NCBI GenBank assembly: GCA_016342455.1 | Contig: JAEIOE010000019.1 | Span: forward strand, 1-36,800 | Reading direction: 5' to 3' | Length of the DNA: 36,800 nucleotides | Source of the DNA: Mycoplasmatota bacterium | GTDB lineage: Bacteria > Bacillota_I > Bacilli_A > Izemoplasmatales > Hujiaoplasmataceae | Shown: in pieces, positions 11,355-33,293 of the stretch | How the letters are laid out: each line of letters starts with the position of its first letter | Numbering within the stretch: position 1 is the first letter of the stretch | Program-made: the position numbers and the translations under genes | Notes under the pieces: model-generated | The model's database searches: none | Seen by the model: only the letters and a program-made list of their open reading frames with translations | What the model was told of the DNA's origin: nothing

Positions 11355-14300
11355 ATGAAAAAAGGTATGATTCTTGTACTAATGATGGTATTAGTACTAA
11401 CTTTAGCTAGTTGTGATTTATTTGGAGCAGCAACAACTGCAACAACTGCTGCAACAACAACTGCAGCAGCAACAACTGCAGCTGCAACTACGACTAGAGC
11501 AACAACAGTAGCACCTACAACAGTAGCGCCAACAACTTTGGCTCCTACAACAGTAGCACCTACTACTGTTACAACTGTTGCAGGAGATAAAACTGCACCA
11601 GTAATTACGGGTGCGACAAGTATAACTATATACGTTGATGTTGCATTTGATCCACTTGCTGGAGTAACTGCATCAGACAACGTTGATGGAGATCTTACTT
11701 CATCTATTACCTATGTTGGCTCTGTAGACATTACACAAACTGGTGTTTATTTCCTAAAATATAGTGTTACAGACGCTGCTGGGAATAAAACAGAAGCATC
11801 TAGATATGTAACTGTTGAAGTTGATCCAAGTTTAATCGGTGATGGCATGGTTCAAAATGGCGACTTTTCATTAGGTTGGGCAATTTGGTCTGGTGTTTCA
11901 GGTGTTGAAGGCGGAACTGGAAACTTTTCTGTTACAGACGGTGTCTTAGCTGTTGAAGTTACTGCCGCTGGTTGGAGTGATCCCTTCCCACGTTTAGACA
12001 GTAATACAATGACTTTTGAAAATGGTGTTACATATGAAATTACATTTTCTGCTAAGGCTGATGCACAAAGACCTATAAAGGTACAAGTTGGAGAATTATT
12101 TGCTGCTGCACCTTGGTTTAAAGACTTTATGCCTGGTCAAATAGAAATATTTAATCTTACAACTGATTGGCAAACATTCTCATTTAAATTTACAATGAAT
12201 GAAGAAACTACTGCAAACGGAAGTATTCTATTTAATCATGGTGGTACTATTACTGGTGATGCAGGATTCGACAATTATGGAACTACAGTTTATTATGATG
12301 ACATTCAAGTAGAAGTATCTACTCCAGACGCTGACACAGCCGCTCCAGTATTTACTGGTGTTGTTGATGCTACAGTTGAAGCTGGAACTGTATTTGACCC
12401 ACTTGCTGGCGTTACAGCATTTGATGTTGTTGACCAAGATATCACGTTAACAGCTGCAAATGTTACAGGTACTGTTGATACAGCTACTGAAGGTGTTTAC
12501 ACATTAACTTATACTGTTACTGATGCTGCTGGAAATACAGCAACAGAAACAAGAGAAATTACAGTTGTTAGTTTAATATTTACTAGTCAAGACTTAATTG
12601 ACGATTCAGACTTTTCAACAACTACTACAGTAATTGATGAACTTCAAGATGCTGATAATGGATATGCTGACATAACTGATCCTGACATTTGGTATAACTA
12701 TGTTGCTACATGGGATGGAGCTGCTGCTGGATTTACAGTTGTTGATGGAGTTATGACAATCGATGTTACAGCTGCAGGAAACCAAATCTGGGGTGTAATG
12801 CTTAAACAAAGAGGAATTACTCTTGTTCAAGGACAAACTTATAAATTAACATTTACTGCTAGCTCAACAGTTGATAGAGATATCGCTGCTGAATTAATCA
12901 GTGAAGATTATAGAACTTCATTTAACTTAACATCTACTGCAACAACATTTGAAATGATTTTCACATATGAAGAAGCAAACACAACAGATGCTAGATTAGC
13001 ATTCTTCTTTGGAAACTCTCCTGCATTCGCAGCGGGTGTTGTATCAATTGATGATGTTATGTTATCAGTATTAGAACAACCTACAGTAGTGAATGGTGAC
13101 TTCTCAGAAACTGGTTGGTCAACTTGGGCTCAAGACTGGGATCCAATGGCTGGAATCACTATTGATATCGTTAATGGAGAATTAGTAGCTGACGTTACTG
13201 CACTTGGTGGAGCTAACTGGGGTGTACAATTATTCCAAGAAGGTATTGAATTAGTAACTGGTACAGTATATACATTCACATTCGATGCAAAAGCATCAGT
13301 AGCTAGAGATATGAACTTTGTGTTAATAGCAGATGGTGAATATAGAGAAACATTTATGTTAACAACAGAAATGGCAACTTATACATATACATTTACATAT
13401 ACAGGCGCTGCAACAACAGGTAAAATCGACTTTGAATTCGGTAATATCTCAGTTAGTTCTGTTCCTGCAATGATTACTTTGGATAATTTAGCTCTAAATG
13501 ATGGAACTGCAGATGTAGAAATCGTAAACGCTGACTTCTCACAAGTTGTTGGTTGGTCAACATGGGCTCAAGATTGGGATCCTGTTGGTGGCGTTGCTAT
13601 TGAAGTAGTTGCTGGACAATTAGAAGTTGACGTTACTGCACTTGGTGGAGCTAACTGGGCTGTACAATTATTCCAAGAAGGCTTTGAGTTAATTCCTGGT
13701 TCAGTATATACTGTAACTTTCCAAGCGAAAGCTTCAGTAGCTAGAGATATTAACATCGTTCTTATCGATGGTAATAATGCTGAAGTAAGAAAAACTTATA
13801 TGTTAACTGAAGATATGCAAACATTCACATTTACTTTCATGTATGAAGGTACATCTACAACTGGTAAGATTGATTTTGAAATCGGTGCTATCAGTGATGA
13901 TTCAGTAGTTGCTTTAGTAACAATTGATAATGTTAATGTATTTAGAAACTTTAATGAATTCGTTCCAGAAGTAATAGAAGAACCTGTTAGTGATGGAGCA
14001 GTAGTTATCGGTTATGGTGGAATGGATACAGTTGTATTAGATGGTGTAATCACTATTACTTATACAAGCGTACCAACTCCTTGGTATAACGATAATACAC
14101 AAATAGAACTTCCTTCATTTGATGAAAATCAAGAATCAATTGTCTTTACATTTACAGGAGTTCTAGACCAAGTTTACTTATTTAAAATTGAAGGTGGCGG
14201 AGTTAACACAGAAGTGGAAGCTACTGGTACTGGCGCTGAACAAACTGTAACACTTGATCTTTCTGGTTTTACAGCAGCTGAGAGAGCTGGATTAAACTTA

Positions 14301-16025: not shown

Positions 16026-17066
16026 ATGATAGATAAAATTAGAGGTGTAAACTTAGGCGGTTGGTTAGTATTAGAAAAATGGATGACTCCTGAGTTATAT
16101 GCTGGCTTCGATGAAGCTCATGATGAATATAATCTTTTATTAAAGTTAGAAGATTCAAGACAAGCTATACTAAAGAAACATAGAGATACCTTTATCACAG
16201 AAAAAGATTTTGAATGGATGAGTGAATACGGACTAAATGTATTAAGACTTCCAATCGGTCACTGGTTATTTGAAGATAAGTATCCCTATATTAATTCTTT
16301 AGAATACGTTAAAAAAGCCTTTTTTTGGGCTGAAAAGTATGGAATGAAAATATTATTAAATGTTCATGCAGCACCAGGTTGTCAAAATGCTTTTGATAAC
16401 GGGGGCTTAAGTGGCATTTGTGATTGGCAAAAGTATGATAATATTGATAAAACATTAGTGTTTATCGAACAAATGACCAATTATTTTAAGGAAGAAAAAA
16501 GTCTTTATGGTATCCAAGTACTTAATGAACCTAGATGGGATATTGATATTTCTATCATTCAAGAATTTTACTTGAATAGTTATAGAATTATAAGAAAATA
16601 TCTTAATGATGACTACGTAATTGTGTTTCACGATGCCTTTAGGTTAAATCAGTGGAAAGAATTTTTTACAAGTAACGATTTTACCAATGTTATTTTAGAT
16701 ACTCACATGTATCAGGTATTTTCTTATAATGATAAAAGAAGAATTCCTGTTGAAGTTTTGGAAAAAACTAGTATTTTACGCTATAGAGAATTGGAAAAAA
16801 TAGATTTTGTTGATATCGTTATCGGAGAGTGGTCGCTTGGGGTACATAAATTCGCCTTAGATCAAATAACTGATGATTTTATGAGAGAATCTTTCTACAC
16901 AGCGGTTGGTCATAATTTGCTAACTACTTATGAAACAACAAAGGGTTGGTTCTTTTGGAATTACAACCTAAGTGAAGAATCAACAAAGAAACGTATTGGA
17001 TGGTCTTTTAGAGATGTTGTTGAAAAAGGCTATCTACCAAAAAAGATTAAAGGAGACAAACGATGA
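16026..17066 (+). CDS. Cytosolic GH5 family exo-beta-1,3-glucanase-like enzyme
   Basis: A 346-residue GH-A clan enzyme. It opens with RGVNLGGWLVLEKWM, the opening characteristic of exo-1,3-beta-glucanases of the yeast Exg1 type (GH5 subfamily 9). LRLPIGHW and LLNVHAAPG follow, then the acid/base Glu168 in VLNEPR and the nucleophile Glu268 in IGEWS. There is no signal peptide, so it should release glucose from imported beta-1,3-oligosaccharides in the cytoplasm. The exact subfamily, and so the linkage, is inferred from motifs only. Its last four bases overlap the start of the solute-binding protein gene (ATGA overlap), so the two are translationally coupled. Confidence 0.85.
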   Translation: MIDKIRGVNLGGWLVLEKWMTPELYAGFDEAHDEYNLLLKLEDSRQAILKKHRDTFITEKDFEWMSEYGLNVLRLPIGHWLFEDKYPYINSLEYVKKAFFWAEKYGMKILLNVHAAPGCQNAFDNGGLSGICDWQKYDNIDKTLVFIEQMTNYFKEEKSLYGIQVLNEPRWDIDISIIQEFYLNSYRIIRKYLNDDYVIVFHDAFRLNQWKEFFTSNDFTNVILDTHMYQVFSYNDKRRIPVEVLEKTSILRYRELEKIDFVDIVIGEWSLGVHKFALDQITDDFMRESFYTAVGHNLLTTYETTKGWFFWNYNLSEESTKKRIGWSFRDVVEKGYLPKKIKGDKR

Positions 17067-18577
17067 AAAAAATAATGACTTTAGCTATTCTAGGAGTCTT
17101 AGCGTTTAGTTTAATTGCTTGTGATAGAGCTACAACCGAAACTCAAGCTCAAACAACAGCAACAACAACTGGAAGCTCAACTACAAATAGCCAAACAACT
17201 ACTGCAGGAACTGTGACTACTGGAACAGGAACAACAACAGCAACTACAACTACAGAAGCTGTAGATGTATGTGAAGTAGACCCATTTGCACCGGAATGTA
17301 TCACTACTGATACTATTGTATTGTCATACGCAGATTGGGGAGATACAGAACTAAATACTGCTCTCATTAATGAGTTCATGTTAAAATATCCTAATATCAC
17401 GGTTGAATTAAGACAAGATATTACTGGTTCTGGTTCTGAATTTACTGGAAACTTAATCAATGCTCAAACAGCTGGAATTTTACCAGATGTATTTGCAATT
17501 GACAACGTTCCTACAGGTATTAATAATGGAATGTTATTAGATATTAGCGAATTTTTTGATATTGACCCTGATACTGAGTTAATATATGATAATATTAAAG
17601 GTACAGCAGTGTATAATGGAATGAGATTAGCAATTCCTTCTTTCCAATTTATTAAAGGGATTTTTATTAACATGACTTTATTTGATACTTATAATATTCC
17701 TTTACCAGATAAAGACTGGGATTATGATGAATTCATCGCATTATCAATCGAAATTAGACAAGCTGGGTTAAATGATTCAGTATTTGGAATTGATCCTTGG
17801 TATGGTGCTTTAGATTTTGAATCTACATTCCCAACTCAAGATTTCGCAGATGTTGGTTACCAAACATGGGATGGAACACAATTTAATTTTACAAGTCAAC
17901 CGTGGATTGATGCTTATAATGCAAAACTTGATTTATATGCGCAAGATGTTGTTGGTAATTATACGGCTGAAGAACTAAGTTCTTTAGGTGTTGACTGGCC
18001 TTGGTACGATGGACTTATCGGAATGAAAATCGATGGATCATGGAACTTATGGATGGTTGATGCAATGTATGAAGATAGAAATATTGAAGTAGGATTCTGG
18101 CCTTACCCAGGTGGTGATGCTGGTCAATTCCCTCCAACAATATTAGACTTTTCATGCGTGTCTTCACAAACTTCATATCCAAAAGAAGCATATTTATTAG
18201 CAAAATGGATGACGTTCGGTAGAGAAGGTTGGTTAACTAGACTCGCTTTAATGGAAGACAGAGGAGATACATATCTAGACCGTTATCCTATCGCTGATTA
18301 CCCAGAAGTATGGGAAGCAGCTGAGGACTTTATATTCTATATTGAAGGTTTAATAGAAAACATTGATTTATTAGAATATTCAAAGCCAGATGTTGATAAA
18401 TGGTTACCAGGATATAAAGCTTTCTGGGAATGGGTAAGTAATCCAGACAATGATTACTTCACAAAAATAGATGCTGGTTTAGTTACTCCTGAAGTATTTG
18501 CTTCAGAATGGGAAACAAAATTAAATCAATTAGTTTTAGAAGCAATGGCGCTTATTGGCCAAGATGAAGATGAATAA
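17063..18577 (+). CDS. Sugar ABC transporter solute-binding lipoprotein
   Basis: A 504-residue family-1 extracellular solute-binding protein. It has a signal peptide ending in the lipobox LIAC (Cys20), then a Thr-rich stalk to about residue 65, a short segment with two Cys eight residues apart (CEVDPFAPEC), and the binding fold starting at IVLSYADWGDTEL. The ligand is presumably a beta-glucan oligosaccharide, by context. It is followed by a long-loop terminator (18587-18650), which would leave this mRNA more abundant than the permease genes downstream, as in other sugar importer operons. Which of the two permease pairs it serves cannot be decided from sequence. Confidence 0.88.
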   Translation: MKKIMTLAILGVLAFSLIACDRATTETQAQTTATTTGSSTTNSQTTTAGTVTTGTGTTTATTTTEAVDVCEVDPFAPECITTDTIVLSYADWGDTELNTALINEFMLKYPNITVELRQDITGSGSEFTGNLINAQTAGILPDVFAIDNVPTGINNGMLLDISEFFDIDPDTELIYDNIKGTAVYNGMRLAIPSFQFIKGIFINMTLFDTYNIPLPDKDWDYDEFIALSIEIRQAGLNDSVFGIDPWYGALDFESTFPTQDFADVGYQTWDGTQFNFTSQPWIDAYNAKLDLYAQDVVGNYTAEELSSLGVDWPWYDGLIGMKIDGSWNLWMVDAMYEDRNIEVGFWPYPGGDAGQFPPTILDFSCVSSQTSYPKEAYLLAKWMTFGREGWLTRLALMEDRGDTYLDRYPIADYPEVWEAAEDFIFYIEGLIENIDLLEYSKPDVDKWLPGYKAFWEWVSNPDNDYFTKIDAGLVTPEVFASEWETKLNQLVLEAMALIGQDEDE

Positions 18578-18668: not shown

Positions 18669-21629
18669 ATGCTAAAAAAATTAAAGCAAATAAATAGAAA
18701 ATGGTTTGTATTACTGGGCTTGCTAGTTGTGGTGTTACTGATTGTACTATCTTTCAGTAAATACTCAAATATCAGCTATGTAGATATAGATCCAAATTCA
18801 ATTGATTTGCAAGATTACAATTTAGAATCATACAGTCAGGTTTCGAAAACTTGGACTAATGTGACAGACGAAACCTTAGTTACCATTTATGCAGAAGATA
18901 TGTCTGATGCATCTATTGATGGTGGCTCTTTTGCTTATTCAGGGGATATTATTCATTTAGTTGAAGGTGACGTTATTGAATTCGATATTGATATTGTAAC
19001 GCCTGGAGCTTATAACATCCAAATCGACCAATTTGACGTTTCAGAGAACATTTTGTCTAATGAAATTTCTTTGTCTATCAATTCAGAATTTCAGTATGAA
19101 GAAGCAGAAGTTATCAAACTTCCTACTTACTGGGAATTCGAAACAAAGACTTTCCTTAAAGACAGATATGGTAATGAAATATTACCGAATTCTTTAAAGG
19201 ATGATGAGTGGAGATTAAATACGCCACTGAGAGATTCTACAGGACTTAATTCTGGCAATTTGACATTTAATTTTGTTAGTGGATCAAATACAATAAAAAT
19301 AGAATGTATCGCTGGAACGATATTGTTAGGAAATTTATACATTAAATCTGTAGAATCAACAAAGACTTATGAAGAGTATCTAGAAGATAACGTTTCAGAA
19401 ATGGCTTCTGGCTTAGTTATTCAAGGTGCTGAAAATATCTTATTTAAAACTAGTCCTTCTATCACCTTAGATAGTGAAAGAGACCCATCAGCGACTTCTT
19501 ATGATACACAGTATTTAAGATTAAATGCAGTGGATGGATCTAGTTTTGAACAAGGAAATGACGAACTAATATATGAGTTAGTAGTACCAGAGACAGGTTA
19601 TTACAATTTGGCTTTAAAATATCGTCAAGATTATTTAATGCAAATGCCTGTATTTAGAGAAATAAAATTTGATGGAGTAGTTCCTTTTACCGATATGGAA
19701 GCTTATGCATTTCCATATACTTCAACCTATGAAAATCTTGTTTTAAACAATGGTGATGAAGACTTCTTATTCTATTTGACAGAAGGAACACATACAGTAT
19801 CTCTTAGAGTTGTACTAGATCCCTACCGTAACGCTTATGAAAACATAGTTGGTGTTATGGATGAAATAAATGATTTAAGCTTAGAAATTAAAAAATTAAC
19901 TGGGAATACTTCTGATATCTATAGAACTTGGGATTTAATTGATTATATTCCTGATATTGAGGACAGATTAGACAATTGGATTTATGTTTTAGAAGATATA
20001 TTCGTTGAATTATCGCAATATTCTCATCAAAAAAATCCTGGACAATTAACAAATGTTAATTTGGCCATAGAAAAACTTCAAGAATTAAGAGAAGATGTAG
20101 ATGATATTCCTAATAAAATGGTTTTATTAGCAGATGGATCTAGTTCCGCTGCTCAGTTTTTAGGTTCTTCTATATCTGGTTTATTAGAAAATGGTTTAGA
20201 TATTGAAGCAATTTATCTAAGCGCTAATGAAAAATTACCAGCACCAAAGGCAAATATAATCGTAAGTACATGGGAATCAATTAAACGTTTCTTTATCTCA
20301 TTTACAGCTGATGATTATGCTGTTACAGACGTACCAGAGGGTGTTATCGAAGTATGGGTGAACCATCCAAGACAGTATATTGAAATTATGCAAACAATGA
20401 TTGACAATGATTTTACTCCATATACAAATATAGAAGTAAAATTATCGCTCATGCCAGATGAAAATAAACTTATCTTAGCAAACTCAACAAATTATAGTCC
20501 TGATGTAGCATTAGGGGTTAGTCACTGGATTCCATACGAATTTGCAATTCGTGGTGCATCTCTTGATTTAAGACAATTTGAGGGCTATGAAGACTTAGTT
20601 ACTAAATTTAGTCCAGGAGTTATGATTCCTTTTGCTTTTGAAGAAGGAGTATATGGTATTCCTGAAACACAAAACTTTTCCGTTACATTCTATCGTACAG
20701 ATATATTAGAATCATTAAATATACCAGTTCCAGATACTTGGGACGAAGTAATAGAAATACTTCCAGAACTTCAAAGATACGGAATGAATTACTATGAACC
20801 TTTGGCTTTATATAAAGGATTCAAACCATTCGTTGCGACCATTCCTTTTATTTACCAATTTGGAGGATCTTTATTTTCTGAAGATGGAATGTCGACCGTT
20901 ATTAACTCAGAAGAAAGTTTAGAAGGAATTAAGTTAATGACTGAATTATTTACAGTCTACGACTTACCAAAAGAAATTCCGAATTTTTACAATCACTTCC
21001 GTTATGGTACCTTACCAATTGGAATTAGTAATTTAGGAACATATTTACAACTATTAGTTGCCGCACCTGAAATCGCCGGTAAATGGGATATAGCACTTCA
21101 TCCTGGTACCTTAGACGCTGAAACTGGCGAAGTGTCAAGATGGGCAGCAAGTGGGGCTCAATCTTCAATGATTTTAAGTTCGACTGATTTAGAACAAGAA
21201 TCATGGGATTTCTTAAGTTGGTGGATGAGTACAGATGTTCAATCTGGATTTGCTCAAAGATTACAAACAACTTATGGTACAGCCTATTTATGGAACACAG
21301 CTAATTTAGAAGCTTTTGCGACTTTACCTTTACCAACAAGTCATAAAGAAGTTATTTTAGAACAATGGGAATATGCAATGGAAGCTTCAAGAATTCCTGG
21401 TGCATACATGGTTGAAAGAGAAATCAGTAATGCTTGGAATACAATCGTCTTTGACGATGCAAATCCTCGTGTTACGCTAGATGAAGCTGTGAAAACAGCA
21501 AATAGAGAAATACTTTATAAAATGGAAGAATTTGGATATGTAGTTGATGGCGAAGTCATGCGTTTCTATAATGTTCCAACAATCTATAATATAGAGTATT
21601 GGCTGAAGGAGCATGATCAGGATGATTAG
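18669..21629 (+). CDS. Membrane-anchored solute-binding protein fused to sugar-binding-like domains
   Basis: 986 residues. A single hydrophobic segment (about 12-29) has no lipobox Cys, so the protein is probably held by an uncleaved N-terminal helix. Two beta-rich segments resembling CBM6/CBM35-type jelly rolls follow (about 50-240 and 245-400; [10 protein letters not shown] and [10 protein letters not shown] are typical strands). A predicted helical linker (about 400-540) leads to a family-1 solute-binding domain (about 560-970; [19 protein letters not shown], then [14 protein letters not shown]). It likely collects oligosaccharides next to the permeases. The permease gene begins inside its 3' end, which couples the two. 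The domain limits are by eye. Confidence 0.82.
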
Positions 21630-22506
21630 AAAAATTAATAAACCTATTTGGTTCCTTGCACCTTACGTTGTACTATTTGTTGTATTTATTATTATCCCAG
21701 TATTAATTGCAATAGGTTTGAGTTTCACCTATTTTAATACGATTGAAACTCCTGATTTTATCGGGTTGAAGAACTATATTGAATTACTTACTAGAGATGA
21801 AGTATTTATGCAATACGTTTTACCGAATACAATTAAATTTGCATTCATAGTTGGACCTGTGGGTTATTTAATGAGTTTCTTGTTAGCATGGTTGCTAGCT
21901 CAGATTCCTCATAAACCTAGAACAATCTTAGCGATTATCTTATACTCGCCTTCTATGACCGCAGGGATAGCTATGACTGTTGTTTGGACAGTTATGTTCA
22001 GTGGGGATTCCACCGGCTATCTGAACTCTTTATTATTACAAATTGGCTTAATTCAAGAACCAATTCAGTTCTTGACTTCGCCAGATCATTTAATGAATAT
22101 TATGATATTGGTTTCTTTATGGGGTTCTATGGGTGTTGGTTTCTTAGCGATGTTAGCTGGGATTCTAAATATCGATCAAACACTATATGAAGCTGCTTAT
22201 GTTGATGGCTTGAAAAACCGTTGGCAAGAAATATTCTATATAACAATTCCATCCATGAAGCCGCAGATGCTCTTTGGGGCTGTAATGGCGGTGGTTGGTA
22301 CCTTCCAAGCTGGAGCGATAGGTGTTATGCTCTCCGGAGGAAACCCAACGCCTCAATATTCCGGGCAACTTATTGTCAACCATATTGAGGACTACGGATT
22401 TATCCGTTATTTGATGGGATATGCATCAGCAATATCTGTTGTTCTACTAGTGTTAGTTTATGCTATTAGTAGAGCTACATTCAAATTACTCGGAGAAAGG
22501 GATTAG
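21622..22506 (+). CDS. Sugar ABC transporter permease, MalF/UgpA type (pair 1)
   Basis: A membrane permease of about 294 residues with six hydrophobic segments. It carries the EAA motif [21 protein letters not shown], which contacts the ATPase (about residues 195-214). The start at 21613 is only one base from AAGGAG (21606-21611), whereas ATG 21622 is 10 bases away, so I prefer the latter. It overlaps the preceding solute-binding protein gene. No ATPase gene is nearby. Confidence 0.9.
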
Positions 22507-22516
22507 GTGAGATATA

Positions 22517-23392
22517 ATGGCTAGTTTTAGTGGAACAAAAATAAATCCTACTAGATTTAATAAATCACAACTTAAGTTTTACTTAATATTAATCCCTATG
22601 GCTTTATTTATTGCATTACCAATTTTATTCATTATCTCACATGCTTTTAAACCTGAGAATGAATTGTTTGCCTACCCTCCAAGATTCTTTGTTAGAGTGC
22701 CAACTTTTCAAAACTTTAGAGATTTAGTATCCATAGCAGCTGATTCAGGTATACCATTTAGTAGATACTTATTTAATAGTATTATTGTTACCTTTATCGG
22801 TGTGTTCTTAAGTGTTATGTTTACTTCAATGGCAGCTTATGCTTTAAGTAAATTGAAATTCAAAGGAAAAAAGATATTGTTTGAGATTAATACAATTGCC
22901 TTGATGTTTGTGCCGATTGCGGTTACGATTCCAAGGTATTTAGTTATTGCCAATACCGGTTTGATTGACTCCTATTTGGTTCTAATCCTACCGTTAATTG
23001 CCATGCCTGTAGGGCTCTTCTTAGTGAAGCAGTTTATCGATCAAACTCCTGATGAGTTGATTGAATCTGCTAAGATTGATGGAGCCTCAGAAATGGAGAT
23101 ATTTTTAAGAATCATTGTTCCAATTATCGCGCCAGCTATTGCGACAGTTGGTATCTTATCATTCGCCTTACTATGGAATGATACCTCTGGTTCATCACTA
23201 TATGTGAATGATGAGAGAATGAAGACCTTAGCCTTCTATTTCTCAACCTTAGCGTCAAGAACAGGTAATACGGTAGCTGGTCAAGGAATAATGGCCGCAG
23301 CCAGTTTGATAACATTTGTACCGAATATCGTTATCTTTATCTTCTTGCAATCTAGAGTTATGAATACCATGGCTCATTCAGGTATCAAATAA
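22517..23392 (+). CDS. Sugar ABC transporter permease, MalG/UgpE type (pair 1)
   Basis: A 291-residue partner permease with six predicted membrane helices. The EAA loop reads ESAKIDGASEMEIFLRIIVP (about residues 188-207), the form normal for MalG-type subunits. It follows the MalF-type gene after 10 bases with Shine-Dalgarno AGGTGA. Its stop shares one base with the next gene's ATG. Together with the 21622 gene it forms one complete transmembrane half of an importer. Confidence 0.9.
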   Translation: MASFSGTKINPTRFNKSQLKFYLILIPMALFIALPILFIISHAFKPENELFAYPPRFFVRVPTFQNFRDLVSIAADSGIPFSRYLFNSIIVTFIGVFLSVMFTSMAAYALSKLKFKGKKILFEINTIALMFVPIAVTIPRYLVIANTGLIDSYLVLILPLIAMPVGLFLVKQFIDQTPDELIESAKIDGASEMEIFLRIIVPIIAPAIATVGILSFALLWNDTSGSSLYVNDERMKTLAFYFSTLASRTGNTVAGQGIMAAASLITFVPNIVIFIFLQSRVMNTMAHSGIK

Positions 23393-25425
23393 TGAAGAAA
23401 TTATTAAGTGTTTTTGTCTTATCTCTTCTTGTATTCGTTTCCCTCGGTACGGCAGTGAATGCAGAATCTGGAGTTAGATATAATACCTTTACGAGTAGTA
23501 ATGGTGAACTTGTAAGAACTCAAACAGCTTACATCGCTTTATCGGAAAGCAGCGATATTTATGGAGAATCTTTAAATACTCCTAACGATATCTACATAGA
23601 CGATAATAATGATGTATATATAGCGGCTACTAATACAACTGCGGGAACTGGAAAAGTAATTAAGTTTAATCTTGCAAATCAAGATGTAGAAGTTTTCGGA
23701 ACTGATTTCTTAATTAATCCTACTGGAATTCATGTAAATGAAGATGGAGAAATCTATGTTGCAGACCGTGCTGCTCACAAAGCATATAAGTTAGATGCTT
23801 CTGGAAATATATTATTTACCTATACAAAACCAAATTCACCGCTTTATGGTACTGATGAGTTTAATCCTCGTAAAATCGTAAGTGATGCAAGAGGAAATGT
23901 ATATATTTTAAATAATGGCTCAAAAGGGTTAATGCAATACTCAACGAACGGTGAGTTCTATGGTTACTTTGGTGTGAATACTATTTCAGCATCATTTAGA
24001 ACCGTTCTTCAGTATGCAATATTTACAGACGAACAAATCGAAAACTTATTTAATATCTCTCCTCAAGAAATTTCTAATCTAGCAATTGATGATCGTGGTT
24101 TGATTCATACAGTTAGTTTAGGGATAGAGGAATATGGTGTAAAACGTTTAAACATTAGTGGAGGAAACTTACTATCAGAAATGATAAACGAGTTGGACTT
24201 AGCGGATATTTACATTGGACCAATTGGTAATATTTATGTGATATCAAAATCTGGATTAATATCAGAGTATGATATTGAAGGCAACTTACTTTTCCACTTT
24301 GGTGGACAAGATGTATCAAATCAAGTGAAAGGTTTATTTAATATACCTTCAGCAATTGCAGTAGATGACAATTATAATATCTATGTCCTTGATTCAGCGA
24401 ATAAAGAACTACAAATATTTATTCCAACTGAATTCGCAACTTTAGTGCATACCGCATTGGACTTGTATCAAGATGGTCTTTACTCAGAAAGTAAAGGTCC
24501 ATGGGAAGAAGTTCTAAAGATGAATGACTTATTTGATTTAGCTCATTCAGGTTTAGGGAATGCATATTATATTGTTGGAGATTACGAAGAAGCATTAGAA
24601 GAGTATTATATCTCTTATGACAGAGATGGTTTTAGCGATAGTTATTGGGAAGTTAGAAATGCATGGTTACTCGCGAATATTGAAACGGTATTAATTATAA
24701 CTTTCGCATTAGCGGCATTGTATTTTGTAAATATGCGTGTCCATTTTATGTCTCCTTTAACAAAGCCTATCAAAAAAGGTGCTAAAAAATTAAGGAAAAA
24801 AGTGAAAGTTCTGGATGAATTATTCTTTGTGTTTAAGTATTTAAAGAATCCAGCAGATGGCGCTTATGAAATTAAACGAAAGAATCGAGTAGGTATGCTA
24901 TCCGCCACGATTCTACTGATTATATTTTTCCTAATATATTTGTTGTATATCTATAAATTAGGATTCCTATTCAATTATAGAATCTTAGCTGATATCAACA
25001 TCTTAGAAGAAGCATTAAAAATATTCCTCCCATTGTTCTTATGGGTAATATCTAACACATTGGTTAGTTCTATTCGTGAGGGTGAAGGTAGATTTAAAGA
25101 TGTTTACATTACAACAATTTACTCTATCACTCCAATCATTTTAGTATTGCCAATTGTAACGATACTTTCACAAGTATTAACATACAATGAAGAATTCTTA
25201 ATTAGTGCTTTAATGTTTATTGGGTATTTTGCGACAATTATATACTTCTTTATCATGGTAAAAGAAACACATTATTATGGAGTGAAGGAATCATTTGGTT
25301 CAATCTTAATTTCTTTCTTTACAATGATAATGATGTTATTAAGTTCAATTATTATATATATCTTACTGAGTGAATTACTCACTCTGATTCGGGATGTATT
25401 CATGGAGGTGTTTGCTCGTGTCTAA
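23392..25425 (+). CDS. NHL-repeat / TPR / YIP1-like membrane protein
   Basis: 677 residues. A signal peptide (1-24, ending AVNA) is followed by an extracellular beta-propeller built of NHL-like repeats (about 50-350; units such as PNDIYIDDNNDVYIA and PTGIHVNEDGEIYVAD). A TPR-like helical pair comes next (about 360-415; GLGNAYYIVGDYEEALEEYY), then one membrane helix, a basic cytoplasmic-looking stretch (KPIKKGAKKLRKKVK), and a multi-helix YIP1-type membrane domain to the end. I know of YIP1-NHL proteins beside carbohydrate ABC transporters in Firmicutes, but no function has been shown to my knowledge. Its position between two permease pairs suggests a transport-accessory, sensing or assembly role. 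Confidence 0.75.
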   Translation: MKKLLSVFVLSLLVFVSLGTAVNAESGVRYNTFTSSNGELVRTQTAYIALSESSDIYGESLNTPNDIYIDDNNDVYIAATNTTAGTGKVIKFNLANQDVEVFGTDFLINPTGIHVNEDGEIYVADRAAHKAYKLDASGNILFTYTKPNSPLYGTDEFNPRKIVSDARGNVYILNNGSKGLMQYSTNGEFYGYFGVNTISASFRTVLQYAIFTDEQIENLFNISPQEISNLAIDDRGLIHTVSLGIEEYGVKRLNISGGNLLSEMINELDLADIYIGPIGNIYVISKSGLISEYDIEGNLLFHFGGQDVSNQVKGLFNIPSAIAVDDNYNIYVLDSANKELQIFIPTEFATLVHTALDLYQDGLYSESKGPWEEVLKMNDLFDLAHSGLGNAYYIVGDYEEALEEYYISYDRDGFSDSYWEVRNAWLLANIETVLIITFALAALYFVNMRVHFMSPLTKPIKKGAKKLRKKVKVLDELFFVFKYLKNPADGAYEIKRKNRVGMLSATILLIIFFLIYLLYIYKLGFLFNYRILADINILEEALKIFLPLFLWVISNTLVSSIREGEGRFKDVYITTIYSITPIILVLPIVTILSQVLTYNEEFLISALMFIGYFATIIYFFIMVKETHYYGVKESFGSILISFFTMIMMLLSSIIIYILLSELLTLIRDVFMEVFARV

Positions 25426-27784
25426 TATATTTAAAAAGATTCTGATAGTACTAGCACTTTCCTTAGCAGTATTCACTACGGTTCATGCTCTACAATTAAA
25501 TCTGACACCTTCTTACGAAGCTGAGGATTTTGTTCAAAACTATCCATTTATTGAAGATGCGAAATTAGCTTCTTCCAGATATACACAACCTGCTGATGAA
25601 ACAGCAGTAAATCCAGATGAATTCCTTGAAATTGATGACCGCGATGATGTATTAATCGCTGAAAACAATTTATTCAAGTTATATTACAACGAAGAAATTG
25701 TTTCTTTCAAAATATTAGATAAAGTAACGAACTATGTTTGGTCTACAGCGATAGACTCACCAAATGCGGGAACTTATACTGGATTACTTAGTTCAGGAAT
25801 TGGAATTGAATATGTCTTATTAGAAAAAGATATGTTTGTTGAAGAAAACATAGGAATAAGTGACATTGCCTTTACTCAAGAACAAACCTTAATCGAAAAT
25901 GGGATTAAAGTAAGTCTTGATTTAGGTGGTTACTGTGCCACAAGACTTTGTACTAGAATGTATGAGCGTTACCTTGATGACGATTTTACCTTAGAAGAAA
26001 TGATTGAAATGGGATACACTGAAATCAATGTTGGGTTTGACTTAGAAGTAACACTAACAGAACAAGGTATCGAAGCTTATATACCAATTGATTCAATACG
26101 TGAAGGAAAACCCGAAGAAATCACTTTATCTTCAATTATATTATTTCCAGGCTTAGGGGCTACTGAAATGGATAACATTCCAGGTTATATGGTAATTCCG
26201 GATGGTGCTGGTGCATTAATACGTTATGAAGACAATAATGACCAATTTAATTCTCCATATGAAGAAAGATTTTATGGGGATAATATGGGATTAGAAGACT
26301 TTAGAACTTCAGCTACAAATTATCCTTTATCGATGCCTATCTTTGGTGCGGTTCATGGGGTAAACCAAAATGGATTTATTGGTATTATAGAAAGCGGAGA
26401 TTTTAACGCTAGATTATTTGCCTATCCTAATGGAGCTCATAATTTGCCATATAACGTTATATTCCCTAAGTTCGATATCCAAGAGGTATACCGTCAAAGC
26501 TTTAGCAGTGACGGGACAGGAGGGACCTTAAAACTCATTCAATCAAGTTATGATGACATTGATGTTGTTTATAATTTCTTAAATGGCTCTGATGCAAATT
26601 ATGTTGGTATTGGAGAAAACTATAGATCCTACTTAGAAATAGAAGACGTGTTAGAAAAACAAACACAATCAGGAGATATTTCTATCTTCTTAAATTACTT
26701 AATGAGTGACTCGGAAGCTTCTTTCTTTGGTAATACCTTAGTAGAGATGAGTTCTGTTGCTCAAGTCTTAGAAATGTATGATTATTTCATCCTTCAAGGT
26801 TTAGAAAATCAAAACGTTGGCTTAATGGGTTGGAATACTAATGGCTACAGTGGTGAATTACCAGCTGATGTCAATTTCGAGAATGCTTTGGGATCAAATA
26901 GAGCTTTCAGAAATTTAATAGAATACATAAACGAAGAAAACTCAGTTTTATTAGTGAATAACTACATCATGGCGAATGGCGATACCGATGGTATTAGTTA
27001 TGCAAAAGATGTGGCGAAGGGAACCAATAGATTTAAAATTCAGGATTCTCACGAAATGTTTACACATTCAGAATTATATATACTCTATCCTTTTGTAACG
27101 AATAAACTAGCTCAAAGAGATTATGAAGATTATCTTGATGAAGGAGTTGGTGTTTTATTCGAATCTTTAGCGAATAATCTTTACTCTTATTATGAGAATG
27201 GTGATTATTACTTTAGGTCTGATAGTTATGCGGAATTTGTTGAAGTCATGGAACTATATGAAGAAATTGGTAGTTATTATTATCCATTTAGCTATAGTTA
27301 CAAATATGCAAACGCATTCTATGAAGCACCACTATACAATTCACAATTAAAGTATTTCGATGATTTAGTTCCACTGTTACAAGTTGTACTGAAGGGTAGC
27401 ATTGATATGTATGCTTCCGCGCTTAACTATAATAGTTTAGGGAAAGAAACAATTCTAAACTTAATTGATTTTGGGATGAATCCAAGTTATGTATTAACTT
27501 ATGAACCAGCGTCTTTATTGAAAGATACTGACTTAAAAAGATATTTTACTACTGAGTTTTCTAGATGGAAAGACACAATAGTAACAGAATATGAATATAT
27601 TAATAATGCTTTAAAATATGTGAACGGTGAATACATAACAGCACGAATTGTTTTAGATTTTGGTGTAGTTATGGTAAGTTACTCAAATGGTGTTGATATT
27701 TATATTAACTATACATCTAGTGATTACACAGATGGATTGGTAACTGTAGAAGCTATGGATTACTATGTGGGAGGTGTTTCTTGA
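25418..27784 (+). CDS. DUF5696-type secreted protein, possible TIM-barrel glycosidase
   Basis: About 788 residues. GTG at 25418 has GGAGG (25404-25408) 9 bases upstream and gives a clean signal peptide (SNIFKKILIVLALSLAVF, ending VHA), so I prefer it to ATG 25394. The N-terminal third looks beta-rich (LFKLYYNEEIVSFKILDK). The middle has alternating strand/helix segments as in a TIM barrel (NVGLMGWNTNGYSGELP, SVLLVNNYIMAN, GVLFESLANNLYSYY), and the end is a short beta-domain. I associate it with DUF5696 from memory. The layout recalls GH31/GH36/GH101-like hydrolases, but I cannot point to a catalytic pair. It overlaps the YIP1-NHL gene by 8 bases. Confidence 0.7.
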   Translation: MSNIFKKILIVLALSLAVFTTVHALQLNLTPSYEAEDFVQNYPFIEDAKLASSRYTQPADETAVNPDEFLEIDDRDDVLIAENNLFKLYYNEEIVSFKILDKVTNYVWSTAIDSPNAGTYTGLLSSGIGIEYVLLEKDMFVEENIGISDIAFTQEQTLIENGIKVSLDLGGYCATRLCTRMYERYLDDDFTLEEMIEMGYTEINVGFDLEVTLTEQGIEAYIPIDSIREGKPEEITLSSIILFPGLGATEMDNIPGYMVIPDGAGALIRYEDNNDQFNSPYEERFYGDNMGLEDFRTSATNYPLSMPIFGAVHGVNQNGFIGIIESGDFNARLFAYPNGAHNLPYNVIFPKFDIQEVYRQSFSSDGTGGTLKLIQSSYDDIDVVYNFLNGSDANYVGIGENYRSYLEIEDVLEKQTQSGDISIFLNYLMSDSEASFFGNTLVEMSSVAQVLEMYDYFILQGLENQNVGLMGWNTNGYSGELPADVNFENALGSNRAFRNLIEYINEENSVLLVNNYIMANGDTDGISYAKDVAKGTNRFKIQDSHEMFTHSELYILYPFVTNKLAQRDYEDYLDEGVGVLFESLANNLYSYYENGDYYFRSDSYAEFVEVMELYEEIGSYYYPFSYSYKYANAFYEAPLYNSQLKYFDDLVPLLQVVLKGSIDMYASALNYNSLGKETILNLIDFGMNPSYVLTYEPASLLKDTDLKRYFTTEFSRWKDTIVTEYEYINNALKYVNGEYITARIVLDFGVVMVSYSNGVDIYINYTSSDYTDGLVTVEAMDYYVGGVS

Positions 27785-28803
27785 TGAAAAAAGTATTGTC
27801 AAGAATAGGAGACTTCTATAACAGTAAAATAGCTGTTTTCCTAGCTAAAGTAGGACATGCGTTAACGCATAACTTCCTAATTAGGTTTACACATTCACAT
27901 TTAATTATGTTTAGTTTTTTGAAGTTTAAAGTAACAAACAAAAGAAGAACTGCAGCAACAGGTTTTGCCTTTATTTTCCTATGGATCGTTGGTTATTTAG
28001 TTTTCTCTTTATATCCAGTTTTCTATAGTCTTTACTTAAGTTTCTTTAAAGTAAGACTTGATGGAGCGAACATACAAATGACGTTCCAAGCAATTAATAA
28101 CTTTAAGGCAGCCTTTGCACAAGACCCATATTTCGTTGAAATATTGGTTGAATATGTTATGAATACCTTGATTAACGTTCCAGTAGTATTAGTGTTTGCA
28201 TTAATTATTGCGATGCTTATCAATCAAGACGTGAAAGGAAAAGGAGTATGGAGAACAATATTCTTCCTACCAGTTATTATTTCCTCTGGGCCAATTATTG
28301 GCGAGTTAATCAATCAAGGGGCAACGACCCTACCATCCATTAATAATTATGATTTAGTCTCCCTTATTTTAAATAACGTGGGAGAATTCATCGCAGATCC
28401 AATTCAGAATCTATTAGAAACTATTTTATTGGTTCTTTGGTTCTCTGGTATTCAAATCTTAATTATCTTAGCGGGACTTCAAAAAATCGATAAAGCGATA
28501 TATGAAGCTTCGATGATTGATGGAGCATCACCATGGGAATCTTTTTGGAAGATTACCCTACCATCCATTATGCCTTTAATTTCCGTTTCCGTAGTTTATA
28601 CGGTGGTTTCGATGTCTGTATTTAGCTTAAATGAAGTTATCATATACATTAAAAACGTAATGCTAGGTGAATCAACGGTAGGTACTTTAACCACAGGTTA
28701 CGGTTATAGTGCAGCTTTATCTTGGATTTACTTTGTAGTAATGGTATTAATTATCGGTTTATACGTTGGACTCCTTAATGTGAAGAGGAGGTCAAGACGA
28801 TGA
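27784..28803 (+). CDS. Sugar ABC transporter permease, MalF/UgpA type (pair 2)
   Basis: A 339-residue permease with a long N-terminal extension (about 60 residues, basic) before the first strong membrane helix. The EAA loop is EASMIDGASPWESFWKITLP (about residues 238-257). TTG at 27781 is also possible, but ATG 27784 is 9 bases from GGGAGG and shares one base with the preceding stop. It is translationally coupled to the DUF5696 gene, so that protein and this permease are probably made together. Confidence 0.9.
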   Translation: MKKVLSRIGDFYNSKIAVFLAKVGHALTHNFLIRFTHSHLIMFSFLKFKVTNKRRTAATGFAFIFLWIVGYLVFSLYPVFYSLYLSFFKVRLDGANIQMTFQAINNFKAAFAQDPYFVEILVEYVMNTLINVPVVLVFALIIAMLINQDVKGKGVWRTIFFLPVIISSGPIIGELINQGATTLPSINNYDLVSLILNNVGEFIADPIQNLLETILLVLWFSGIQILIILAGLQKIDKAIYEASMIDGASPWESFWKITLPSIMPLISVSVVYTVVSMSVFSLNEVIIYIKNVMLGESTVGTLTTGYGYSAALSWIYFVVMVLIIGLYVGLLNVKRRSRR

Positions 28804-29789
28804 AATTATTTAAAAACATAAAAGCTTTTAACAAAGATATTATTTCTTTAGTAAAGGCAAAAGATTATAAACAGTTAAAACAAAAATTTAAACGAATCTT
28901 CATGGGAATGAAGTTTACAGATGGTCTACTATTTAAAGTCTTAATCTATACTTTATTAATTAGTTTAGGTTATATCTACTTATATCCTGTACTTTATATG
29001 GTAACAAACAGTTTTATGACTGTTGAAGATATCATTAATGTATCGGTAAAATGGATTCCATCAAAACTTAACTGGGAAAACTATCGTATCGTTTGGACAG
29101 ACATTGGTTATTTAGATGCCTTAAAAGATGCTTTTATCCTATCTGTGATTCCAGCCTTATCAGCAACTGTATCTAGTGCAATTATTGGTTATGGTTTTGC
29201 AAGATATGAATTCCCACTAAAAAAATTGTTGTTCGTTTTAATGATTATGACATTTATCATTCCACCACAAATTACGATGTTACCAACATTTAGAATGTTT
29301 TCAAATTATGGACTTTTAGGATCTATTAAAGCATTTGTCTATCCTGCAATCCTTGGACAAGGATTAAATGGAGCGATATTTATCTTGATTTTCTATCAGT
29401 TCTTTAGAATGATACCAAAATCATTAGAGGAATCAGCTCAATTAGATGGAGCGAGCAACTTTAAAATATTTACAAAAATTGCGTTACCACTAGCAATACC
29501 ATCTATCATTATCGTGTTCTTATTTAGTTTAGTATGGTACTATAATGAGACTTACCTTGCGGGGTTATTCCTAAGAGGAAGCGATATGTTAACCCTACCG
29601 TTAAGAGTGAACCAATTCATTAATAGTTATACTTCCATCTATCCAGAAGGAAGTCAAGCGAGAGAATTAATGCAAGCGGTCAAATTAGCAGGAAATGTAT
29701 TAACATTACTACCATTATTAGTGATCTACTTTATCTTCCAACGTCATTTTGTTGAGAGTATTGATAGGACCGGAATTACAGGAGAGTAG
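28800..29789 (+). CDS. Sugar ABC transporter permease, MalG/UgpE type (pair 2)
   Basis: A 329-residue permease with an N-terminal extension of about 45 residues rich in Lys, then six predicted helices. The EAA loop ESAQLDGASNFKIFTKIALP lies at about residues 211-230. It begins in an ATGA overlap with its partner. The two pairs in this locus are clearly different in sequence, so they are not a recent duplication. Confidence 0.9.
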   Translation: MKLFKNIKAFNKDIISLVKAKDYKQLKQKFKRIFMGMKFTDGLLFKVLIYTLLISLGYIYLYPVLYMVTNSFMTVEDIINVSVKWIPSKLNWENYRIVWTDIGYLDALKDAFILSVIPALSATVSSAIIGYGFARYEFPLKKLLFVLMIMTFIIPPQITMLPTFRMFSNYGLLGSIKAFVYPAILGQGLNGAIFILIFYQFFRMIPKSLEESAQLDGASNFKIFTKIALPLAIPSIIIVFLFSLVWYYNETYLAGLFLRGSDMLTLPLRVNQFINSYTSIYPEGSQARELMQAVKLAGNVLTLLPLLVIYFIFQRHFVESIDRTGITGE

Positions 29790-29793: not shown

Positions 29794-31467
29794 ATGAAAA
29801 AAATTAGTATTTTATTAACAATGATTATAGTGTTTGGTTTAGTAAGTTGTGATTTCGGTTCACCGACCGAAAGCACAACTGCTTCACAGACCGCTATTCA
29901 AACAACTACATCAGATAATCAGACAACTCTAATAGACACCACTTTAGTGGAAACAACTACACAAGTTGAAACTACTGTAGAAACTACTACTGAATTTGTC
30001 TATGATAATCGTTCTTTAGTGCCAGAGGATTCTCAACACCTTGAAAACATTGGTGATTGGCAACCGGTATGGAGTGACGAATTTAATTATGAGGGATTAC
30101 CTGACTCTGATAAATGGGGTTATGACGTTGGAGGTAGTGGTTGGGGAAATAACGAGTTGCAATACTATACTCGTGAAGACCTTGATAATGCATTAGTAAG
30201 CGATGGAACACTAAAGATTACTGCAAGAAAAGAAGATTATATGGGGAATGAATATACTTCAGCGAGACTCATCACAAAATATAAAGGTGACTGGGAATAT
30301 GGAAAAATCCAAGTTAAGGCAAAACTTCCATCAGGTTTAGGAACTTGGCCAGCGATTTGGATGTTACCAACAGACTGGGTATATGGCGGTTGGCCAGACA
30401 GTGGAGAAATAGACATCATGGAATATGTTGGCTATGATCCAGGAATTGTACATGGTACGATTCATACTGGAGCCTATAATCATAGCCTAGGTACACAAAT
30501 AGGTTATTCAAAAACAGTTGCAGATGCAGAAACAGCTTTCCATGTATATGAATTAGAATGGGAACCTGGATTTATGGAAGTATTCATTGACGGCGTAAGC
30601 TATGGTAGATTTGGATTTAATCCAACTTACAATGTAGATACTGATAATTCAGATGCTTGGCCATTTGACCAAAGATTTCACTTAATACTAAATCTAGCAG
30701 TAGGTGGAAACTGGGGAGGTGCTCAAGGGGTAAACCCTGAAGCATTCCCAACAAGTATGGAAGTTGACTATGTAAGAGTATATCAAAAAGATTACGCAGG
30801 TTTGGATCAAGCTGCACCAGAAGCAGTAACAAATCTTTCAACATTAAAAACAGGAACAGATTCTCTAAAATTTTATTGGACCAAAGCAATTGATGATATA
30901 ATGGTAAAAGAGTATGAAATCTATGTTGACTATGCTTTAGTTGGCGCTACTTCATTAAATTCTTATGAAGTAACAGATTTATTTCCATCTACTATGTATA
31001 GAATTGATGTCGTTGCTGTGGATTTTGCAGGAAATAGATCAACAGAAGCCACTTTGAATTTGGCAACAGATAATGTAAGAACAAACTTAGGTAGAATAGA
31101 AGCAGAAAGTTATACCTTCCAATCAGGAGTAGTCCGTGAGGAATGCTTAGATGAAGGTGGAGGTCAAAACGTAGCTTGGATTGGCACTAACGATTATATG
31201 GAATATCAACTTTTAGTTGAAGAAGCAGGAACTTACCAAATAACATATCGTATTGCAAGTCTTGAAACTGCTGGACAAATAAAACTATATGGGAAAAGTT
31301 CTCTACCACTTGTAACAACTAATTTACCAGTAACTGGTGGATGGCAAGTATGGCAAAGTGTTACAACTACTACATTTACTTTAAGTGAAGGTGTTACTAC
31401 ATTTAGAATAAAAGCAAGCATAGGCGGTTTTAATTTAAATTATTTTGAGTTTGAGAAGGTGGCGTAA
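29794..31467 (+). CDS. Surface GH16 laminarinase lipoprotein with FN3 and CBM6 domains
   Basis: 557 residues from ATG 29794 (GGAGAG 7 bases upstream). The longer in-frame reading back to 29749 would bury the signal peptide. Domains: signal peptide with lipobox LVSC (Cys19), Thr-rich stalk to about 68, a GH16 catalytic domain (about 85-332) with the retaining motif GEIDIMEYVG (nucleophile Glu205, Asp207, acid/base Glu210), a fibronectin type III domain (about 340-425) and a C-terminal CBM6 (about 432-557; IEAESYTFQSG, NDYMEYQLLVEEAGTYQITYR). It should cut beta-1,3-glucan at the cell surface. GH16 also covers agarases and carrageenases, but the EIDIME signature and the neighbours favour laminarinase. 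Confidence 0.92.
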   Translation: MKKISILLTMIIVFGLVSCDFGSPTESTTASQTAIQTTTSDNQTTLIDTTLVETTTQVETTVETTTEFVYDNRSLVPEDSQHLENIGDWQPVWSDEFNYEGLPDSDKWGYDVGGSGWGNNELQYYTREDLDNALVSDGTLKITARKEDYMGNEYTSARLITKYKGDWEYGKIQVKAKLPSGLGTWPAIWMLPTDWVYGGWPDSGEIDIMEYVGYDPGIVHGTIHTGAYNHSLGTQIGYSKTVADAETAFHVYELEWEPGFMEVFIDGVSYGRFGFNPTYNVDTDNSDAWPFDQRFHLILNLAVGGNWGGAQGVNPEAFPTSMEVDYVRVYQKDYAGLDQAAPEAVTNLSTLKTGTDSLKFYWTKAIDDIMVKEYEIYVDYALVGATSLNSYEVTDLFPSTMYRIDVVAVDFAGNRSTEATLNLATDNVRTNLGRIEAESYTFQSGVVREECLDEGGGQNVAWIGTNDYMEYQLLVEEAGTYQITYRIASLETAGQIKLYGKSSLPLVTTNLPVTGGWQVWQSVTTTTFTLSEGVTTFRIKASIGGFNLNYFEFEKVA

Positions 31468-32484
31468 TTGGTTACAATTAAAGACATATCAAGGATATCG
31501 GGTTTTAGTATAACAACAGTATCTAAAGCGCTAAATGACTATCCTGACATAGCAAAAAGCACAAAAGAGCATATTATTAAGGTTTGTGACGAAGAAGGAT
31601 ACATTCCTAATGCACAAGCACAAGGCTTGGTCTCTAAAAAATCATATACGATAGGGATTATATTTGAAGAAATAACTGGAGTTGGTTTACAACATCCATT
31701 ATTTTCTAAGATATTGGAATCTTTTAAAAACGAAGTTGAAAAACTTGGATATGACATTATGTTCTTATCCAACTCTTCTTTAAATAAAAACAATGGTTCT
31801 TACTATCAACATAGCATTAGAAAACAAGTAGAAGCCGTACTTGTTTTATGTGCGGATGTAAACTCTGAGGATATGGTCGAATTATATAATGGAGAAATAC
31901 CAATCGTAATGATTGACTTTGCTCATGAAAAAATTTTAAATATTACTTCTAATAACGAAACTGGAGTAAAAAAAGCTGTTGAACACCTCATTCATCTGAA
32001 CCATAAAAAAATAGCGAATATCCATGGATCATTAGATACCTTTATTGGTGATTTAAGAAAAGCTTATTTTGTTGGTGCAATGAATGAAAATAATTTAACT
32101 GTTCCAGAAGCATATTTTGCGAATGGTGAGTTTTTTAGTAAAGAATCAGGCTTTCATGCTATGAATGAACTCTTAAAACTTGAAGACCAACCAACAGCTA
32201 TATTTTGCGCATCAGATATGCTGGCTATTGGAGCCATACAAGCAATTAAAAAACATGGAAAAAAAGTGCCTAGAGATTACTCAATTATAGGCTTTGACGG
32301 AATTGAAGCTGGACAACTAATAAGTCCGTTACTTACTACTGTCAATCAAGATACAAAACAAATGGGTAAAATAGCCGCGAAACAAATTTTAGAAATGATA
32401 AAACTAAAGAAACAAACAAAAAAAGGGAAAACAATTGAAATTGAAACAACTTTACTTGAAGGAGAAACAACTAGGAAACTATGA
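31468..32484 (+). CDS. LacI-family transcriptional regulator of the locus
   Basis: 338 residues: N-terminal helix-turn-helix (IKDISRISGFSITTVSKALN, about 3-22), hinge segment YIPNAQAQGL with the minor-groove Leu, then a periplasmic-binding-type sensor domain (from YTIGIIFEE) ending with the usual IIGFDGIEAG and LLTTVNQD segments. It starts with TTG at 31468, right after the GH16 stop, with AAGGTG 6 bases upstream; no ATG fits the HTH. It probably represses the promoter at 6797-6826 through the CG-centred palindromes and is itself part of that transcript, so it would be autoregulated. The inducer is likely a gluco-oligosaccharide (inference). Confidence 0.92.
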   Translation: MVTIKDISRISGFSITTVSKALNDYPDIAKSTKEHIIKVCDEEGYIPNAQAQGLVSKKSYTIGIIFEEITGVGLQHPLFSKILESFKNEVEKLGYDIMFLSNSSLNKNNGSYYQHSIRKQVEAVLVLCADVNSEDMVELYNGEIPIVMIDFAHEKILNITSNNETGVKKAVEHLIHLNHKKIANIHGSLDTFIGDLRKAYFVGAMNENNLTVPEAYFANGEFFSKESGFHAMNELLKLEDQPTAIFCASDMLAIGAIQAIKKHGKKVPRDYSIIGFDGIEAGQLISPLLTTVNQDTKQMGKIAAKQILEMIKLKKQTKKGKTIEIETTLLEGETTRKL

Positions 32485-33182
32485 TGAAACTGACCAAACA
32501 TTTTAATTTTACAAATGACTCGTCTTTAGATAATAAATATTGGAATGTAGCAGTCGGCGAAAAATGGGCTAATCATGAATTACAACATTACGTAGATGAC
32601 TCGGAGCATTTATTTTTTGAAGATGGCTTAGTTTTAAAAGCTACTTATCAAGATGGTATTTATAAGAGTGGAAGAATTAGTACAAAACATAAATTTTCTT
32701 TTCAATATGGTAGAATTGATATTGTAGCCAAAGTTCCAAAAGGAATGGGAACTTGGCCTGCTCTTTGGATGATGAGTGCAACTTCACCTTATGGTAGATG
32801 GCCAAGAAGCGGGGAAATCGACATTATGGAACATGTTGGTAGAAACGAAGATAATATTTTTCTTTGTTTACATACCGCTAGTTATAACCATGTCTTAGGG
32901 GACTCTTTCTATAAAGAAATAGTTATTGAAGGAGCAACGGATTCATTCCATACCTATTCGATTGACTGGCAAGAGGACAAAATTACTTATTATATAGATA
33001 ACAAATTAATTGTAAGCTATTCAAAGTTTGATAGAGAAGATAAAAGTTCGAAAGGCTGGCCTTTTGACCACCCCTTCTTTTTAATCATAAATTTAGCAAT
33101 TGGTGGTAAGTTTGGTGGAGATGTAGATAATACTATTTTCCCAGTAGAATTTATCATTAAGGATATAAAAATATATCAATAA
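32481..33182 (+). CDS. Cytosolic GH16 beta-glucanase-like enzyme
   Basis: 233 residues, a bare GH16 domain without signal peptide, stalk or binding module. The catalytic motif GEIDIMEHVG (Glu112, Asp114, Glu117) is intact, as is the substrate-cleft segment GTWPALWMM. It is clearly a paralogue of the surface GH16 domain encoded at 29794. ATG codons at 32481 and 32484 overlap the LacI stop. A cytosolic GH16 is unusual because GH16 enzymes normally act outside; it may trim longer oligosaccharides entering through the two importers. It is the last gene of the locus before the terminator. Confidence 0.9.
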   Translation: MMKLTKHFNFTNDSSLDNKYWNVAVGEKWANHELQHYVDDSEHLFFEDGLVLKATYQDGIYKSGRISTKHKFSFQYGRIDIVAKVPKGMGTWPALWMMSATSPYGRWPRSGEIDIMEHVGRNEDNIFLCLHTASYNHVLGDSFYKEIVIEGATDSFHTYSIDWQEDKITYYIDNKLIVSYSKFDREDKSSKGWPFDHPFFLIINLAIGGKFGGDVDNTIFPVEFIIKDIKIYQ

Positions 33183-33260: not shown

Positions 33261-33293
33261 AAAAAAAACCATCAAAATGATGGTTTTTGTTTT
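33261..33293. terminator. Bidirectional terminator between convergent genes
   Basis: AAAAACCATCA / TGATGGTTTTT form an 11-bp stem with a 3-base loop (33264-33288). An A-run at 33261-33268 precedes it and T-rich sequence follows, so it can terminate both the glucan locus on the plus strand and the hydrolase gene on the minus strand. Confidence 0.9.

Follow-up and report, generated by a model that had tools for sequence, protein, structure and literature searches.

Why are a membrane protein of the Yip1 family and a protein of family DUF5696 encoded by overlapping genes between two pairs of sugar permease genes? The question is raised by a locus in the window, as the whole stretch of 36,800 nucleotides of a Mycoplasmatota bacterium analysed here is called. 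In the reading which we favour, and to which we give a probability of roughly 0.6, the two proteins (hereafter YIP and DUF5696) serve a CUT1-type ABC glycan importer as its own accessory subunits, acting as scaffold plus docking component.

Among the open-licence papers searched we found no mention of DUF5696 and none describing the gene set of this cassette, which current annotation presents as loose parts: a YIP1 family protein, a DUF5696 protein and sugar permeases. The cassette occurs in a large share of the genomes around the order of the window and at many Paenibacillus and Clostridia loci, where its neighbours concern glycans of very different kinds. Should YIP and DUF5696 prove to be subunits of an importer, a large variant of the textbook CUT1 system would have gone unstudied, two unexplained families would acquire a testable role, and a glycosidase fold would have been turned into a transport subunit. 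Loci of glycan uptake could then also be recognized by a new marker in bacteria that have no outer membrane, among them wall-less lineages in which the cassette lies beside peptidoglycan-fragment enzymes.

Gene content and organization

The cassette has the order SBPx-PA1-PA2-YIP-DUF5696-PB1-PB2; all window features given here lie on the + strand. YIP (23392..25425; 677 aa) comprises a signal peptide, an NHL propeller, TPR and six membrane helices which include the Yip1 domain. Pfam recognizes the NHL repeats (6.9e-14) and Yip1 (PF04893; 1.2e-8, 35.4 bits, above the gathering cut-off of 28.6), with weak TPR matches, and agrees with the AF2 model on the propeller, TPR and YIP1 membrane domain that the initial annotation had described. 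The DUF5696 ORF (25394-27784) matches PF18952 with 3.4e-137 (459 bits versus a gathering cut-off of 25.6). Its likely start is the GTG at 25418, preceded by GGAGGT, the alternative being the ATG at 25394; the overlap of the two genes noted earlier therefore stands, its likely length being 8 bases and not 32. Taken together, PF18952, AF2, Foldseek, hhalign and a residue tally describe the product (25418..27784) as a membrane-anchored, GH129-fold putative pseudo-glycosidase.

All four flanking permeases are BPD_transp_1 proteins, so that there is indeed a permease pair on each side, as had been claimed. On the upstream side these are the MalF-like PA1 (21613..22506; EAA loop EAAYVDG) and the MalG-like PA2 (22517..23392; ESAKIDG), and on the downstream side PB1 (listed as 27781-28803 from a TTG, or 27784..28803 from an ATG; EASMIDG) and PB2 (28800..29789; EESAQLDG). 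The loops of PB1 and PB2 were located by pattern search, those of PA1 and PA2 by eye. The one-base coupling reported for both ends was recovered as TAATG at 23392 (PA2/YIP) and as TGATG at 27784, the latter if the start of PB1 is the ATG that directly follows the listed TTG.

SBPx (18669..21629; 986 aa) has an N-terminal membrane helix, a CBM35-like and helical region, and a C-terminal solute-binding protein (SBP) domain (SBP_bac_8, 9e-13). The nearest solved structures are Lin1841 (5ysb) for the SBP domain and the CBM35 of 5x7g for the CBM35-like part. Immediately upstream lies the gene of a lipoprotein SBP (17063..18577; 504 aa, lipobox LIAC), which brings the window cassette to eight genes. 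This protein has no Pfam match alone, but its family profile matches sugar SBPs of the PDB (22hh, E 3e-43; 6rjy, 1e-18), and 18 of 43 equivalent upstream genes match SBP_bac_1.

Upstream of the cassette are a GH30 glycosidase (6883..8196), a GH161 beta-1,3-glucan phosphorylase without a Pfam match (8202..11333; 1043 aa; PDB 9qqk, E 2.8e-228) and a GH5 enzyme of the cellulase family (16026..17066). Between the latter two is the gene of a surface protein of 1528 aa (11355..15941) that has Ig-like domains and four of the CBM4_9 type; a similar protein of 1891 aa comes after the cassette at another locus (L036). Downstream, a GH16-Fn3-CBM6 lipoprotein, an extracellular beta-glucanase (29794..31467; start read as the ATG at aa 16), is followed by a LacI-type regulator (31468..32484) and a second, cytoplasmic GH16 protein without signal peptide (32481..33182). 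A terminator-like stem-loop, called by consensus match only, lies 3' of this last gene (33264..33288). Matches in a promoter scan of the window were not above those in shuffled sequences.

Occurrence and synteny

The window genome possesses three cassettes. Of 61 related genomes, 43 have a DUF5696 match above the cut-off, as have 101 of the 296 genomes of the class. A genome-collection scan gave at least 564 relatives, the best 80 of which include Acholeplasma laidlawii, Haloplasma contractile, Candidatus Izemoplasma and many Paenibacillus, as well as Alkalihalobacillus, Lederbergia, Caldicoprobacter and Lachnospiraceae. The order of the seven-gene cassette, for which a neighbourhood survey had been proposed, is kept from Acholeplasma and Izemoplasma to Paenibacillus and Clostridia. 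It recurs in 136 complete cassettes (129 after duplicate removal). The synteny tally covered 177 loci, which were picked for carrying DUF5696 and some of which are one locus from two collections; genes in the relatives' loci were called by simple ORF selection. SBPx-P-P-YIP, with YIP whole or split in two genes, is present in 131 of the 135 loci having at least 7.6 kb upstream, and two permeases follow DUF5696 in 157 of 163, three more having both fused. With these values on the two sides the flanking permease arrangement is not due to chance. PB1-PB2 is apparently one fused protein of about 620 aa in L086, L118 and L125.

A reverse test with the Yip1 part alone as query yielded 69 matches in the 61 related genomes. 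DUF5696 lies within 2.5 kb of 65 of these; short contigs or the edge of a contig account for the remaining four. YIP and DUF5696 are thus hardly ever separated; they are together wherever the contig permits, which strongly supports the initial annotation in assigning both proteins to an import machine. Wide occurrence without ABC permeases, which would speak against that assignment, was looked for, and no YIP or DUF5696 gene without permeases was found in the loci and genomes surveyed, the apparent loners being at contig ends bar one deletion remnant. This remnant (L232:10904 onward) has lost SBPx, both PA permeases, YIP and one half of the DUF5696 gene, and retains the other half, PB1, PB2, GH16, LacI and GH16.

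Relation to the two permease pairs

It had been suggested that the two proteins join two ABC channels. Bridging of both channels into one machine as their essential role would fit the position of YIP-DUF5696 between the permease pairs in 136 of 136 complete cassettes, and the co-inheritance of all seven components, which correlate with r at least 0.80 in distance matrices that include shared species history and so rank links and are not proof of contact. A Halanaerobiaceae MAG argues otherwise. It encodes DUF5696 ten times and SBPx not at all; in six of the eight loci read the order is YIP-DUF5696-PB1-PB2-lipoSBP, with one permease pair each. Of the other two, L236 has an unclassified gene of like size in the SBP position, and L239 ends at the contig edge with an SBP upstream (L215 and L240 are one and the same locus). 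By these cassettes the pair is part of a single channel, and a junction of two is not needed. One of the Halanaerobiaceae cassettes (L233-L240) adjoins an alpha-L-rhamnosidase and one is upstream of threonine synthase.

The pairwise-distance correlations over the 129 cassettes, again with species history included, place the two proteins with the downstream pair: YIP-DUF5696 0.95, YIP-PB1/PB2 0.93/0.94 and DUF5696-PB 0.91, against 0.80/0.83 for DUF5696-PA, PA1-PA2 themselves giving 0.95. YIP and DUF5696 thus group with PB1/PB2 over PA1/PA2, and SBPx-PA1-PA2 looks like an add-on. The survey supports two statements: in the genomes YIP and DUF5696 are obligate companions of the PB1/PB2 pair, and SBPx-PA1-PA2 is a second module, usually but not always added. 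As most cassettes do have two permease pairs, these may function jointly, but a bridge as the essential role of YIP-DUF5696 we regard as distinctly unlikely.

YIP as a candidate scaffold

The AF2 model of YIP (pLDDT 86) consists of a signal helix, the propeller, TPR-like helices and membrane helices, and the Foldseek matches listed are mainly to NHL and other propellers. The analyses support an arrangement in which the six-helix Yip1 membrane domain carries the NHL propeller and TPR on its outer side. There is a precedent in Bacillus, where YknW, a protein of the Yip1 family, modulates the assembly of the ABC complex YknXYZ (PMC4887032). YknWXYZ resembles the cassette in combining a Yip1-family membrane protein with an ABC transporter and an extracellular partner. 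It differs in that YknYZ is a MacB-like exporter, whereas all four window permeases are of the BPD_transp_1 type and the cassette contains no MacB-type partner; nor is a propeller or TPR described for YknW in that paper (PMC4887032). It is from this precedent and from the gene partnership that we infer a scaffold role for YIP. By analogy with YknW, the Yip1 domain would dock on the PB1/PB2 permease and assemble the complex, and the propeller and TPR would hold DUF5696 over the channel.

Conserved residues in YIP are E600 and, strongly, the DGEG loop of the Yip1 domain. This loop, and the LacI and other regulators often found nearby, might be taken as signs of a sensing or envelope-assembly module that reports importer loading and does not handle glycans. 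Such a module seems to us very improbable, for no signalling domain was recognized and the regulator type is variable or missing while YIP-DUF5696 is constant.

DUF5696, a probable pseudo-glycosidase

The AF2 model of DUF5696 has a pLDDT of 90. Foldseek against the PDB returned ZgGH129, NagBb (catalytic D435 in the numbering of PMC5698469) and GH101, then GH36 and GH31, with E 1e-32. The fold is of the GH129/GH101 type over its full length, with a beta-sandwich and a barrel. The earlier suggestion of a secreted, possibly TIM-barrel protein is thus correct as to the barrel, which is of the GH129 type, but the N-terminal membrane helix anchors the protein, so that it is not freely secreted. A second SBP is ruled out by the same fold, which is not that of a periplasmic binding protein.

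Homology with GH129/GH101 (NagBb, ZgGH129 DagB) extends to the sequence. In hhalign the 172 DUF5696 sequences align with a GH129 set (one Pfam GH129 match in the class plus the genes of a family, f21, reached via PF18952) with a probability of 99, E 2.5e-18, 572 columns and 15% identity. In this 15%-identity profile alignment 27% of the 172 sequences have an acidic residue in the column of the GH129 nucleophile and 16% in that of the acid/base, which in NagBb we take, with the printed alignment, to be E478. No well-conserved acidic column was found within two residues of either aligned position among the 172. The aspartate columns of the HLDGW and HDQY motifs are acidic in 2% and 3%. DUF5696 differs from GH129/GH101 in having no conserved D435/E478 positions, in being membrane-anchored and in lying always within a transporter cassette, and the catalytic columns rule out an ordinary GH129. 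Because the aligned carboxylates are not conserved, DUF5696 is probably a membrane-anchored pseudo-glycosidase related to GH129/GH101, and of the roles first proposed, glycan handling or docking, both plausible, the loss points to binding rather than hydrolysis.

Residue 692 of the window protein, in the barrel, is D or E in 99% of the 172 sequences, so catalysis by some unknown route is conceivable. An active hydrolase with a rearranged active site, trimming glycans at the channel mouth and anchored by YIP, would account for this nearly invariant D692, for the retention of the full GH129-type fold and for the constant proximity of importer genes. It is unlikely, given that the barrel has no conserved carboxylate pair, that the HLDGW-aligned position is lost as well, and that separate glycosidases usually adjoin the cassettes. 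In the scaffold-plus-docking reading the inherited glycosidase cleft would be a non-hydrolytic holder, which receives oligosaccharides and hands them to an SBP or to the channel.

The f21 genes (L139, L221-L226) are true GH129: they score 747 bits to NagBb over the full length, and both catalytic motifs, YLDVF with the nucleophile and SSEE with the acid/base, are intact. Six of the seven exceed the PF18952 cut-off over part of the protein, and consequently PF18952 matches of about 600 aa without permeases are not to be taken for DUF5696.

Importer class and energy source

The cassette shares with CUT1 importers of the MalFGK2/MsmEFGK type the BPD_transp_1 pairs with EAA loops and the SBPs of the SBP_bac_1/8 type. 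Where the standard CUT1 system has a single SBP and a single permease pair, the cassette has two of each, SBPx being an SBP fused to a CBM and anchored in the membrane, and it has two further subunits which are membrane-anchored as well. The ATPase typical of CUT1 importers is of the MalK type with an OB/TOBE domain. No ATPase gene is present within the window cassette. The best UgpC/MalK-type ATPase of the window genome is encoded on a different contig, next to VTC, DUF4956 and HTH_30 genes (L227:7352-10479); the string VTC-DUF4956-HTH_30-MalK also comes directly after PB2 in a relative (L076), and in P. cellulosilyticus UgpC immediately precedes the cassette. In the favoured model a shared MalK-type ATPase would power the importer.

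In the SusCD systems of Bacteroidota a dedicated surface glycan-binding subunit feeds a transporter. We tentatively suggest, at somewhat less than even odds, that the cassette represents a widespread unnamed glycan importer of single-membrane and wall-less bacteria, one that would do the work of SusCD with an ABC transporter. A GH129/GH101-derived pseudo-glycosidase would be its surface docking subunit on a propeller-Yip1 scaffold; its core would have one permease pair, the second pair and the membrane-anchored CBM-SBP fusion being added in most lineages. The likeness is one of function only: the cassette implies neither outer membrane nor TonB, its binding subunit would be glycosidase-derived and its motor an ABC ATPase.

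Cargo

The genes downstream of the cassette vary by lineage and are mostly glycan-active (GH16/GH30, PF10091, GH3, NamZ+GH3+DUF624, GH38, GHL10); some flanking genes, for VTC, threonine synthase and flavin oxidoreductases, are not glycan enzymes. In the window, GH16, GH30 and the GH161 phosphorylase missed by Pfam make beta-1,3-glucan or beta-1,3-gluco-oligosaccharides the likely cargo of what would be a laminarin-consuming bacterium. The GH16 lipoprotein would cut beta-1,3-glucan outside, and the imported oligosaccharides would be broken down inside by the GH161 phosphorylase.

A similar set is found in a genome that shares 93% identity with A. laidlawii across 19.5 kb. There two loci (L246 and L120) together give the row GH3-GH94-GH16-GH30-SBP-SBPx-PA1-PA2-YIP-DUF5696-PB1-PB2-GH16-GH161-like-GH3; the gene in L120 is called GH161 because it is 40% identical to that of the window. 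Kuhaudomlarp (2019) described in A. laidlawii a GH94 cluster and a neighbouring GH161 cluster, possibly sharing an SBP (PMC6484121). The gene contents given in the excerpts of that account match this row, and the same excerpts make no mention of YIP1 or DUF5696. In our present reading the two published clusters would be a single cassette.

In Acholeplasma-type genomes (L105, read by Pfam, and similarly L143, L145, L152 and L155) DUF624, NamZ and GH3 genes follow the cassette, which suggests that wall-less bacteria take up fragments of peptidoglycan. At the second cassette of the window genome (L035) a PF10091 gene comes next, and together with the Lin1841-like SBP domain it gives a hint of beta-1,2-glucan.
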